A DNA stretch of 64,000 nucleotides from the NCBI RefSeq assembly GCF_036013745.1, contig NZ_CP107880.1:5146001-5210000 (forward strand), written 5' to 3'. This DNA comes from Streptomyces sp. NBC_00483 (GTDB lineage: Bacteria > Actinomycetota > Actinomycetes > Streptomycetales > Streptomycetaceae). The translations under genes were made by a program, and so were the position numbers. This document shows positions 21,885-60,429 of this stretch, one piece after another (the first letter of the stretch is position 1; every line of letters starts with the position of its first letter). The notes beneath the pieces were generated by a model that did no database searches, had not been told where the DNA came from, and worked only from the letters and a program-made list of their open reading frames with translations.

Positions 21885-22414
21885 GCCGCCTCCCCGAGTG
21901 ACCGCGGAACGGGTACGAACTCACCGCGGAACGCGTTCGATCCGGCGTCGTACGTGAACGGCGACAGCCGCCACTCGGACTCGGAGGGAAGTTGTTCACC
22001 AGCACGCACCCACACCCGGTTCGCGGGCACGCCGTGGGTGGCGGTGTCGGCGTAGGCGTCCTCCTGCGAGCTGTAGATCATCCAGGGGTCGCCGTAGTGC
22101 CGCAGCAGGTACAGGTAGCGGCCCGGTTCGCGCGCTTCGGCAAGTTCCTCGCCAAGGCGCCGCAGCTCGATGCGCTGCAACAGCAGCTCTTCCTGCGCGG
22201 CGCTCAGTTCGGCCACGGCGCCGGCGAACATCTCGCCGACCGCTTCCTTACTCTCTTCGGCGCGCTCCGCGCGGCCGTTGGCGGCGGCCAGCACCTCCAT
22301 GTGCCGGGTGGCCGCCGTGTTCGCGGCCTCCGTCGCCTGCCGGGCCCGCTCGAACGCGGCGTGAGTGTCGGCTTCGAGCCGGGCGAGCCGCTTGGCGGTG
22401 ACGATGCGGATCAT
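21881..22414 (-). CDS. AICE coiled-coil protein (177 aa)
   Basis: The N-terminal 100 residues are a heptad-like Ala/Glu coiled coil (RLARLEADTHAAFERARQATEAANTAA onward). The rest (PGRYLYLLRHYGDPWMIYSSQEDAYADTATHGVP) looks like a small globular domain. ATG 22414 overlaps the DUF6284 stop (ATGA) and its own stop overlaps the Spd start. No family is recognised. The second AICE has no counterpart in this slot. Confidence 0.75.
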   Translation of the reverse strand: MIRIVTAKRLARLEADTHAAFERARQATEAANTAATRHMEVLAAANGRAERAEESKEAVGEMFAGAVAELSAAQEELLLQRIELRRLGEELAEAREPGRYLYLLRHYGDPWMIYSSQEDAYADTATHGVPANRVWVRAGEQLPSESEWRLSPFTYDAGSNAFRGEFVPVPRSLGEAA

Positions 22415-22677
22415 GCGGCGTCACGCTCCCCATCGGCGGTGCCGTGGTTGGCGACCTCGACGTGCGCGGCCAGCACCTTGCGGCGGGCGCGGCGCAGCCG
22501 GCGCGAGTCCACCTCGTTGACGGGGCGGTCCAGCAGCTCGATCTGTACGTCCAACAGTTCCAGCTCCGCGTCGATCAGCGGGGCCTCACGCTCGATGGCG
22601 TCCAGCTCCGCGTCCGTGGGCTCCAGATCCGAAGCGAACGCGGTAACAACGTCCTGAACAGTGACGATGTGTTCCAT
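22411..22677 (-). CDS. DUF6284-family small AICE protein
   Basis: The 88-residue acidic then basic helical protein begins MEHIVTVQDVVTAFASDLEP. TDAELDAIEREAPLIDAELELL is followed by VDSRRLRRARRKVLAAH. It is clearly homologous to the protein at 59723-59986 in AICE-2. It is the first gene of the transfer operon, and a conserved, structured 5' leader precedes it. The biochemical role is unknown. Its shape (acidic coiled helix plus Arg-rich helix) suggests a small regulator or adaptor. Confidence 0.82.
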   Translation of the reverse strand: MEHIVTVQDVVTAFASDLEPTDAELDAIEREAPLIDAELELLDVQIELLDRPVNEVDSRRLRRARRKVLAAHVEVANHGTADGERDAA

Positions 22678-22815
22678 GGGTCGTGGTCTCCCTAGCAGGT
22701 CACAACGGCCCGAACAGAGCCCCCGGAGTTGCTGCTCCGGGGGCTCGCGCCGTTGAAGTCGGTAGTTCCGACTCCCCGCACCGCCGCTCGTACGAGACGA
22801 GCGGCGGAGGCAGTC
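22678..22815 (-). promoter_or_regulatory. Structured leader RNA upstream of DUF6284 operon, copy 1
   Basis: Read leftwards, the leader has a hairpin at 22807-22781 (CCGCCGCTCGT/ACGAGCGGCGG), then a 53-nt structure at 22755-22703: outer stem CAACGGC/GCCGTTG and inner 12-bp stem GAGCCCCCGGAG/CTCCGGGGGCTC with a 6-nt loop. CCTGCTAGGGAGACCACGAC leads to the ATG. The second AICE has the same layout at 59593-59722 with a differently sequenced inner stem. No U-run follows, so it is not a plain terminator. Confidence 0.7.
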
Positions 22816-23087
22816 GGCCGCCGCATCGGAACGCGGCGGAGGTTGAGCAGTGCGCGATATGGATCTGTGCCTCAGTCCCGCTCCTCCGAGGAATCGCGTC
22901 TCGGTCTCTTCGCGCGGCGTAAGTGCCCTTCGGGCAGATCCGTTCTTTTGAGTCGGCACGTGTCCCTGACGGGAGATGACCGACTGGTCTCCACTCGCCT
23001 CAGCCGGTGCGGTCACGGCCGTCCTGTCTGCGGTGGATCACGCTCTTGAGTTGGAGGTCATGCGGTGGTGCATACGCCAGCACCTGC

Positions 23088-23147
23088 ACTCATGTACTCC
23101 TGTGCAGGAGTGACAAGTAAGAGAGTGCCCAACTCCTGTACATGAGT
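23088..23147. promoter_or_regulatory. Candidate operators for the GntR/KorSA-like repressor
   Basis: ACTCCTGTGCAGGAGT at 23096-23111 is a 7-bp-arm perfect palindrome. ACTCCTGTACATGAGT at 23132-23147 is nearly palindromic. Related CTCCTGTACATAAG lies at 23999-24010 on the other side of the regulator gene. The cluster occupies the intergenic region (22816-23200) between the regulator's 3' end and the transfer operon leader; no gene is visible there. It probably controls the leftward transfer operon. Confidence 0.55.
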
Positions 23148-23200
23148 CAACCCACCGCGCGAATTTGCTGCGGTGGGTTGGTGGTCAGGAGGTAGGTGCT

Positions 23201-23977
23201 TCAGTCGCCCGCAGGGATGCGGTACTCCAAAACGAACTGGTCAGCGGCCATGAACGTGTCGCAGACCTCGATGACTCGGCCTGCCTCAGATTCTGCGTTT
23301 CGGGTCAGATGGATGATGGGCGAACCGGGGCTCAGGCTCAGCGCGCCGATCTCCTGCTTGGTCGCGAGGCGGACGCGGACTGTCTCTGACAGCTCCTTCA
23401 GCATGTGCCCGTGCTCCTCAAGGCGGGCGTAGATCCCGCCGCCGCCGGGGTTCTCCTCGAACAGCTCGGGGATGTCCTTGGCGATGTCCCACGGGAGGTA
23501 GGAAGTGGCTTCCTCGGTGGGGATGCCGTCGCTGAAGTACAGGCGCCGCCGCGCCAGCACCTTCTCGCCGGCCGGTACAGACAACCGTCCCGCGATCTCG
23601 TCCGGGGCCTCGGTCGGCCCGACGTAGAGAACGCTCACGCTGGGCTTGCTGCCCGCCTGCTCTGCCTCTGCCAGGTAGGCCGCCTTGCCCGCTGTGCGGT
23701 GCGACCTGCGGAAGCGGTCCGAGGACTTTCGCCGCACAGGAGGGCGCCGCTTTACGTACGAACCCTTGCCGTGGAAGGTCTCGACCAGCCCAGAGGCACG
23801 CAGCTCGGCCGCCGCTCGGCGAGCCGTTCCCTGAGCCGCGCCGTACTTCTCCATGAGGTCGGATTCACTCGGGACCTTTTGGCCCGGCGCGATGATGCCC
23901 GCCTCGATCTGCTGTACCAGGTCGTCCGCGATCTGCAGGTACCTGGGCTTTCCTGAGTCTCTGGAAGACGTGGGCAT
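23201..23977 (-). CDS. GntR/HutC-family repressor, KorSA-like
   Basis: The 258-residue protein has an N-terminal winged helix (PRYLQIADDLVQQIEAGIIAPGQKVPSESDLMEKYGAAQGTARRAAAEL), a linker, and a C-terminal UTRA effector domain (about 90-255, ending VIEVCDTFMAADQFVLEYRIP). In pSAM2 the homologous KorSA represses pra and itself and keeps the element integrated. Candidate operators with CTCCTGTACAT lie on both sides of this gene, including within 25 bp of its start, so autoregulation is likely. Confidence 0.88.
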   Translation of the reverse strand: MPTSSRDSGKPRYLQIADDLVQQIEAGIIAPGQKVPSESDLMEKYGAAQGTARRAAAELRASGLVETFHGKGSYVKRRPPVRRKSSDRFRRSHRTAGKAAYLAEAEQAGSKPSVSVLYVGPTEAPDEIAGRLSVPAGEKVLARRRLYFSDGIPTEEATSYLPWDIAKDIPELFEENPGGGGIYARLEEHGHMLKELSETVRVRLATKQEIGALSLSPGSPIIHLTRNAESEAGRVIEVCDTFMAADQFVLEYRIPAGD

Positions 23978-59574: not shown

Positions 59575-59722
59575 CGGCTGCGGCGGTTGCCTCCGCTGCT
59601 CGTCTCGTACGAGCGGCGCAGAGGGGAGCCGGATCTACCGACTTCAACGGCGCGCGGCCCCGGTGCTCGAACACCGGGGCCGCTGTTCGGGCCGTTGCTA
59701 CCTGCTAGGGAGACCACGACCC
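59575..59722 (+). promoter_or_regulatory. Structured leader RNA upstream of DUF6284 operon, copy 2
   Basis: The first hairpin at 59593-59619 (CCGCTGCTCGT/ACGAGCGGCGC, with G-T wobble) is followed by the 53-nt structure at 59645-59697: outer stem CAACGGC/GCCGTTG and inner 12-bp stem GCGGCCCCGGTG/CACCGGGGCCGC with a 6-nt loop. CCTGCTAGGGAGACCACGAC leads to the start codon. Stem positions, lengths and spacing equal those at 22678-22815, while the inner-stem bases differ in a pair-preserving way. Confidence 0.72.
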
Positions 59723-59986
59723 ATGGAACACATCGTCACTGTTCAGGACGCTGTTACCGCATTCGCTCCGTTCATGGAGCCCACGGACGCTGAGCTGGAC
59801 GCCATCGAAGCCGAGATGCCCGCCATCCGCGCAGAGATGGAGCTGCTCGACGCGCAGATCGTCACTATCGACCGCACGCCGACCGAGGTCGACGAGCGGC
59901 GCATCCGTCGGGCTCGCCGGCGCGTGCTCGCCGCGCACCGCGACCAGCTCAACCGCATCACCGAGCAGGCGGGCGGTGCCGCATGA
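59723..59986 (+). CDS. DUF6284-family small protein of AICE-2
   Basis: The 87-residue protein begins MEHIVTVQDAVTAFAPFMEP and continues TDAELDAIEAEMPAIRAEMELLDAQI, VDERRIRRARRRVLAAHRDQL. It is homologous to the AICE-1 protein at 22411-22677 over the full length. It is the first gene of the transfer operon, coupled to the next (ATGAG overlap at 59983). Its function is unknown; conservation together with its leader suggests a regulatory role. Confidence 0.83.
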   Translation: MEHIVTVQDAVTAFAPFMEPTDAELDAIEAEMPAIRAEMELLDAQIVTIDRTPTEVDERRIRRARRRVLAAHRDQLNRITEQAGGAA

Positions 59987-60429
59987 GCGCCGTCGTACGG
60001 GACCTGTCCGCCGCCCACGCTGAGGTGAAGGCGGAGATCACGCGGACCGACAGCAAGGCCAGTCTCCTACTCGCCTTCATCGGTGCTGCGCTGGCCGGCG
60101 TATGGAGCGCGAGCAAGGATCTGACGCTCACCGTCTACACGCTCGCCCCCGGCCTGGCCGGTGTCGCGGTGCTGCTGGGCGCCGCCGCGCTGCTGCTGTC
60201 CTCGGTGCGACCGAACCTGTCCGGTCGGCACGGCTTTCCGCTGTGGGCCACGCTCACGCCGGAGCAGATCCGGGACGCGGTGGCCACCGACATCGCCACC
60301 GACATCGCGGGACTGTCGCGCATCGCCGTCACCAAGTTCACCGCGCTGCGGCGCGCGATCGACCTGACCCGTATCGGCGGGGCGCTGCTCATCGTCGCCA
60401 CCGTCGTGACGCTCGGGGGTGCGGCATGA
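59983..60429 (+). CDS. Pycsar-effector-like two-TM-pair membrane protein
   Basis: The 148-residue protein resembles the membrane family now called Pycsar effectors: the N-terminal helix AEVKAEITRTDSKASLLLAFIGAALAGVW, a second helix (GLAGVAVLLGAAALLLSSVRP), a cytoplasmic middle and a C-terminal helix (RIGGALLIVATVVTLGG). In Pycsar defence such proteins open the membrane on binding cCMP or cUMP. No nucleotide cyclase gene lies beside it, so it may instead serve transfer or entry exclusion. It overlaps both neighbours. Confidence 0.68.
   Translation: MSAVVRDLSAAHAEVKAEITRTDSKASLLLAFIGAALAGVWSASKDLTLTVYTLAPGLAGVAVLLGAAALLLSSVRPNLSGRHGFPLWATLTPEQIRDAVATDIATDIAGLSRIAVTKFTALRRAIDLTRIGGALLIVATVVTLGGAA

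Follow-up and report, generated by a model that had tools for sequence, protein, structure and literature searches.

A structured unit before DUF6284 genes of Streptomyces, preserved mainly on the strand opposite to the gene, as a candidate antisense RNA gene

Two copies of a structured unit in the window

The window analysed here, a 64-kb stretch (64,000 nucleotides) of a contig of Streptomyces sp. NBC_00483, contains two 53-nt units, at 22703-22755 on the minus strand (copy 1) and at 59645-59697 on the plus strand (copy 2). The first gene after the unit encodes in each case a DUF6284 protein (22411..22677, minus strand; 59723..59986, plus strand) and overlaps the next ORF in an ATGA, with the ORF after copy 2 starting at 59983. 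Both units fold into an outer and an inner stem as the earlier note on this DNA had described, with minimum free energies of -39.5 (copy 1) and -40.6 kcal/mol (copy 2), z-scores of -6.17 and -5.95 in shuffle tests, and no equally stable fold among 200 shuffles. The outer stem, CAACGGC/GCCGTTG, does not differ between the copies, and the inner stem has 12 bp and a 6-nt loop in both, with three pairs changed from copy 1 to copy 2 (A-T to C-G, C-G to G-C and A-T to T-A), all of which remain paired. The run preceding the ATG is also the same in the two copies, as had been claimed, but it measures 23 nt rather than 20 nt. Further upstream lies a second hairpin around CGTCTCGTACG, here called H1 (22782..22806, minus strand, with 10-bp arms and a 5-nt loop, and 59594..59618, plus strand), whose loop is CTCGT in both window copies. 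This hairpin, reported earlier as a kept part of the leader, is real, being found in 35 distinct forms, but it is optional, its flanking module being present in 49 of 82 leaders. The ORF that follows the DUF6284 gene of copy 2 (59983-60429) matches the Pfam family PycTM (Pycsar effector protein; E 1.8e-13).

Read on the strand opposite to the gene, the same region of copy 1 comprises two stem-loops and a tail. Stem-loop 1 (22678..22711, plus strand; helix B) is closed by GGGTCGT..ACGGCCC, with 7 contiguous pairs that include one G·U on the plus strand, and covers the Shine-Dalgarno region of the minus-strand gene. Stem-loop 2 (22717..22746, plus strand) is the inner hairpin with its 12 bp and 6-nt loop, in which pairing is kept with G·U on the plus strand. 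The tail GCCGTT (22749..22754, plus strand) is the complement of AACGGC, the 5' arm of the outer stem in the mRNA, and could form helix A with the 3' arm of stem-loop 1. The counterparts in copy 2 lie on the minus strand, at 59689..59722 (stem-loop 1), 59654..59683 (stem-loop 2) and 59646..59651 (tail). Candidate promoter boxes for this strand are found within codons 4-12 of DUF6284: in copy 1, GTAAC at 22643-22647 and ACGAT at 22664-22668, with 16 nt between them (22643..22668, plus strand), and in copy 2 the complements of 59753-59757 (GTAAC) and 59732-59736 (ACGAT) (59732..59757, minus strand).

A scan of the whole window with Rfam 15 returned three tRNAs and nothing else at gathering score, and a scan of both leaders at E up to 5 brought no family near its gathering score. 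The Streptomyces small RNA scr5239 matched copy 1 weakly on the mRNA strand (25.6 bits, E 0.012), far below its gathering score of 64, and copy 2 with just 14.0 bits. In agreement with the earlier statement that the unit is not a U-run terminator, 22400-23300, the one stretch scanned, around copy 1, holds no terminator-like site, that is, no GC-rich hairpin followed by a U-run; after the hairpin copy 2 has the same CTGTTCGGG as copy 1, and neither window copy has a U-run.

Distribution of the unit and the genes behind it

DUF6284 proteins (Pfam PF19801) led to 80 loci, the best 80 of 148, and the unit precedes the DUF6284 gene in all 80. These loci were used to build the search model, so that their own match is by construction, and 150 genomes of the genus Streptomyces served as the independent test set. 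At E up to 0.01 the model matches in 80 of these 150 genomes, the matches in three of them (G060, G098 and G121) being weak and chance-like, and DUF6284 is present in 71. Of the 143 unit rows, 9 that were partial or lay on the opposite strand were set aside, and the other 134 were compared with the 114 DUF6284 rows; the unit was found directly upstream of 112 of the 114 DUF6284 matches, bearing out the expectation of a hairpin at most DUF6284 loci. The two matches without it are N-terminally truncated, matching only from profile positions 38 and 48, and their surroundings hold neither the unit nor a DUF6284 N-terminus. Genome G020 carries both a DUF6284 fragment lacking unit and N-terminus and a unit lacking an intact start (L163 and L169), which look like the remains of deleted elements.

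The window's own genome has three copies of the unit, and the element that had been described as shared by two AICE copies is in fact spread far more widely, with matches in 176 of 394 genomes and 10 of 17 genera of the Streptomycetaceae (E up to 0.003). A search at class level matched 14 of 296 genomes, 13 of them in the genus of the window; the other match (L161, in genome G292) is by eye an unrelated hairpin. The plasmid pSG5 and two other Streptomyces plasmids also bear the unit. On pSG5 (L085:3328-3446) it precedes a gene annotated only as hypothetical, and its 5' arm no longer pairs fully. A phage origin was considered and rejected: the 14-mer CTGTTCGGGCCGTT occurs in at least 120 viral-contig stretches, yet the unit was found in only one (L180) of the 80 searched.

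DUF6284 is not the sole family encoded behind the unit. It is lacking behind 22 of the 134 unit rows, of which 21 were read (the unread row has a score equal to that of L159 and lies on the same contig). A small protein starting MK(T/C/Y)IVAG follows the unit in nine of these (L140-L145, L147, L148 and L150), and the other first genes encode a pSG5-like protein (L146), a NUDIX protein (L149) and another small family (L151 and L152). Three rows are doubtful (L154 and L155, WhiB-like; L159, sigma-like), and five are ordinary hairpins by eye (L153, L156, L157, L158 and L160). Among 46 further matches read from other species or genera, a few of them doubtful, the start codon is in place in 45. Locus L149 has two units, at 1100-1182 and 1866-1948, one before the NUDIX gene and one before a DUF6284 gene. 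In leaders of the MKxIVAG family, T-runs absent from the window copies stand on the mRNA strand right after the inner hairpin (L140, CTTTTTC; L142 and L145, TGTTTT).

The neighbouring genes belong to a transfer module. Within the fetched flank of up to 3 kb, a transfer relative (DUF2637, RRQRL, TraA, TraB or FtsK) is encoded at 69 of the best 80 of the 148 DUF6284 loci and at 43 of 62 non-DUF6284 loci, and a relative of GntR or XRE regulators at 67 of the same 80 DUF6284 loci. The predicted structure of DUF6284 is a helical hairpin (mean pLDDT 83), and a fold search with it yielded best matches of E 1.0 or worse, none of them informative. The literature searched contained no report of the unit and none mentioning DUF6284.

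Covariation and the strand that folds

Across 101 distinct leaders, the 12 inner pairs are paired in 98.2% of cells and show two-sided change at 8 of 12 positions, so the covariation first seen between two copies persists in a broad alignment. A tree-aware count over 98 distinct leaders and their tree, a test of our own that is cruder than R-scape, gave 66 same-branch double changes in ten pairs of the inner stem against 12.1 expected, compared to 10, 10 and 5 observed against 8.5, 5.9 and 4.8 expected in controls with slid pairing. Helix B, which pairs GGGcCGT with ACGaCCC and closes just before the start codon, has 7 such changes against 1.06 expected; five of the 7 fall at one pair, which is mostly part of GGG/CCC and elsewhere of GAG/CTC. 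Helix A, the outer stem, shows 8 against 5.9 expected, which is not above expectation, and its support is conservation, not covariation. The earlier argument from pair-preserving change to selection on structure is thus upheld for the inner stem, but it does not extend to the outer one. A third partner, in which the 5' arm would pair with codons 10-11, was rejected as too weak and kept as a possibility (fully complementary in 125 of 191 leaders; 174 of 20000 permutations as good; p 0.014 and 0.031 at two of six pairs). Taken together, these counts strongly support selection on the structure of the unit.

A G·U pair on one strand is a C·A on the opposite strand, and the non-Watson-Crick pairs that are tolerated in a conserved helix therefore reveal the strand that must fold. 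In the inner core, read on the mRNA strand, we counted 34 C·A or A·C against 5 G·U (2175 cells from 198 leader entries, 193 of them distinct), and 24 C·A against 5 G·U when the inner stem was taken in distinct stems. The hairpin finder treated G·U as paired and C·A as mismatched, and so leaned against an excess of C·A. Hairpin H1, which was located through its flanking sequence and without requiring pairing, served as a control and has the reverse composition on the mRNA strand, with 24 G·U against 2 C·A in 35 distinct forms (from 68 locus ids, some of which are the same place fetched twice; Fisher p 1.4e-8 for the contrast). Hairpins of the H1 kind thus vary as structures kept on the sense strand. 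A mutational bias was controlled for at the third positions of codons 13-70 in 80 genes, where G>A (27/1872) and C>T (81/1886) show the opposite bias.

The same asymmetry extends to the other helices. In helix B, 189 of 193 anchored leaders have C·A at the middle pair as read in the mRNA, which the opposite strand reads as a wobble, and the standard pairs of this helix amount to 96.0% on the antisense strand against 81.0% on the sense strand; the five interior positions of helix A hold 12 C·A and 4 G·U in distinct forms. When the 80-mer was folded alone, the antisense strand was more stable than the sense strand in 72 of 75 leaders, and two hairpins are visible in the six antisense folds that were printed; the sense-strand unit also folds well. 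It is thus mainly on the opposite strand that the structure of the unit has been preserved. The earlier note had placed it in the mRNA leader, and with this asymmetry an autoregulatory mRNA site, a riboswitch or an anti-terminator is no longer the leading reading. We infer that H1 is part of the sense transcript and that the unit is part of an antisense transcript ending before H1. The wobble-tolerance test is simple and can be used on other 'leader' motifs that may be antisense RNAs.

A candidate antisense RNA and competing explanations

Nucleotide constraint continues into the first codons of the gene. Among the best 80 of the 148 DUF6284 loci, codons 6, 7, 10 and 11 are ACT, GTT, GCT and GTT in 76, 76, 69 and 80 of 80 genes, against a background use of about 0.03 for each of these codons, and valine 5 is encoded by GTC in 53, GTT in 14 and GTG in 11. 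ATYGT stands at nt 10-14 in 78 of these 80 genes and in 33 of the 35 tested from other families, and an exactly placed CATCG (nt 9-13) occurs in 161 of 198; GTTAC at nt 31-35 is found in all 80 but in only 14 of the 35 non-DUF6284 genes tested. Read on the antisense strand these boxes become GTAAC-N16-ACGAT, positioned for a transcript start near the start codon, which suggests an antisense promoter. The BldN site is given as CGTAAC-N16-CGTTGA (PMC2375139); the -35 half of the candidate boxes agrees with it, but the -10 half agrees only in part, with a spacing that is one base longer. Alternatively, the A/T-rich third positions could result from selection against mRNA structure near the start.

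We consider it slightly more probable than its negation that the unit is the gene of a cis-encoded antisense RNA, some 80 nt long and folded into two stem-loops, which would act in the manner of FinP. Transcription would begin from the promoter within codons 4-12 (GTAAC-N16-ACGAT), at about the start codon, and would extend roughly 80 nt away from the gene. The RNA would form stem-loop 1 (GGGUCGU..ACGGCCC), enclosing the complement of the Shine-Dalgarno region, then stem-loop 2, the variable hairpin of 12-13 bp, after which comes the conserved GCCGUU tail. The fixed C·A/G·U position would allow stem-loop 1 to form in the antisense RNA and would weaken the mirror hairpin in the mRNA. Paired with the mRNA across the start codon and Shine-Dalgarno region of the gene that opens the transfer module, the RNA would lower the translation of this gene and, through the ATGA overlap, that of the next. 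A promoter inside codons 4-12 would also explain the MxxIV-x5-VT start common to different first genes. Several observations speak against an antisense RNA: the antisense strand of the window copies has no U-rich tail after stem-loop 2, the GTAAC box is missing from most of the non-DUF6284 genes tested, the boxes resemble the BldN consensus in the -35 half only, the sense strand folds well too, and helix A shows no excess covariation. The strand asymmetry, moreover, would by itself fit bottom-strand single-stranded DNA equally well.

The number of stem-loops and the length of FinP are like those of the proposed RNA. In the plasmid antisense RNAs of which FinP is an example, loops often differ between co-resident elements, and the unit departs from this pattern in that its co-resident copies do not diverge. 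In 76 leaders from 30 genomes with several copies, diversification of loops between co-resident elements was rejected, the hairpins being more alike within a genome (identical in 8.5% of 71 pairs) than between genomes (0.8% of 2779 pairs); loop specificity, which many plasmid antisense RNAs would lead one to expect, is accordingly not in evidence. Inner loops occur in both orientations (CTCGAA/TTCGAG and CGGCTA/TAGCCG; L411, L412, L347 and others), as if the hairpin inverted in place. FinP is described as pairing to the ribosome-binding site of traJ (PMC9977716), and the proposed RNA would likewise be cis-encoded on the opposite strand, over the ribosome site of the gene heading transfer control; a structure encoded opposite the leader of its target, as in RNAs of the FinP type, is what the preserved strand of the unit presents. 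The two belong to different phyla, and the likeness is one of layout, with no sequence relation claimed. Moreover, the target of the unit is a small protein of no assigned function, and the candidate antisense promoter lies inside the codons of that target.

Among explanations that place the function in the mRNA, a sense translational switch is possible but not favoured. In this model GGGCCGTT of the mRNA would have two alternative partners, the 5' arm AACGGC in helix A and CACGACCC, immediately ahead of the AUG, in helix B, and the choice between them would expose or hide the ribosome site. The two helices do compete for one strand at nearly equal energy (the difference A minus B averages +0.23 kcal/mol with an sd of 2.06, and 82 of 96 lie within 3 kcal), all six pairs of helix B are intact in 87 of 102 leaders, and few permutations of the arms were as good in distinct combinations (7 of 20000 for helix B, with 23 combinations, and 81 of 20000 for helix A, with 35). 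All three strands are altered together in L318, and in 79 of 96 the Shine-Dalgarno stretch is more accessible when helix A forms than when helix B does. The predicted exposure is nonetheless similar in the two states (0.42 for A, 0.34 for B), and for the start codon it is B that is the more open (0.63 against 0.32). In a chimera test of the mRNA tail, native tails folded no better than mixed ones (mean -9.76 against -9.84; 3661 of 5000 permutations did as well), the reason being that there is little variation in either arm. Also against the switch are the C·A mismatch of helix B on the mRNA strand, the tolerance of non-Watson-Crick pairs that favours the other strand in all three helices, and the lack of excess covariation in helix A. 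The strand bias speaks in the same way against a site in the mRNA for protein binding, for instance by DUF6284, or for processing by RNase III, which we regard as quite improbable. The two-part GC-rich stem with its asymmetric internal loop, the strictly conserved outer strand and the helical hairpin predicted for DUF6284 would suit such a site. The earlier proposal of an autoregulatory site for DUF6284 has become less likely, however, because the unit also precedes genes of other families, and the fold search gave this protein no informative match. Least probable of all is a transcription attenuator or terminator for which the GC-rich inner hairpin of the mRNA would serve, a reading that the T-runs of some non-DUF6284 leaders would fit, as would similar hairpins elsewhere in the genomes (L153, L156-L158 and L160), themselves chance matches by eye. 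Copy 1 has no terminator-like site, CTGTTCGGG in both window copies contains no U-run, an unsystematic look noticed no strand able to undo the 12-bp GC stem, conservation runs on through the ribosome site into the codons, and the wobble bias lies on the wrong strand.

A structure in bottom-strand single-stranded DNA, such as a lagging-strand or transfer origin, would be expected to show the same strand asymmetry as an antisense RNA, and the unit is present on pSG5, a plasmid of rolling-circle type according to the title of a reference. We nevertheless think it unlikely, if somewhat less so than a protein-bound site: the unit is fixed at the start codon, with a nucleotide constraint that extends into the codons, it also occurs on L084, where a primase/polymerase is encoded and no rolling-circle initiator is annotated, and its two copies in L149 stand before two different genes.

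These considerations leave the antisense RNA as the reading that we prefer, and such an RNA may hold transfer in check. Transfer silencing in actinomycete integrative elements is otherwise mainly attributed to DNA-binding regulators of the KorSA type. These regulators are described as keeping the transfer of such elements silent, and SCO3932 as binding the intergenic DNA that separates its own gene from the pra homologue SCO3933 (PMC8584621). Regulation of AICE genes by GntR proteins of the KorSA/SCO3932 type concerns the same part of the element as the unit, but it is exerted by a protein on DNA, whereas the unit is a nucleic-acid structure over a translation start. The dauA, livJ, pntA and asfR motifs are Streptomyces leader motifs that were likewise found comparatively; they belong to other genes and are described as leaders of the downstream mRNA, and in the available text of that source no motif of a mobile element is among them (PMC11109978).

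More tentatively, and with less confidence than in the antisense RNA itself, we suggest that in the integrative elements of Streptomyces and in plasmids of the pSG5 type the transfer module is gated by a family of FinP-like RNAs, with a promoter in the first twelve codons that would force a shared N-terminal tag and a fixed C·A/G·U position that would let the hairpin over the ribosome site form in the antisense RNA and more weakly in the mRNA. If true, this would add an RNA layer to transfer silencing and an RNA family with a mappable target, and it would explain the odd codon choices and shared N-termini of unannotated small proteins. Such an RNA, conserved and lying across the gene that comes first in the transfer module, would concern roughly one genome in two within the genus (80 of 150, including the three chance-like matches).
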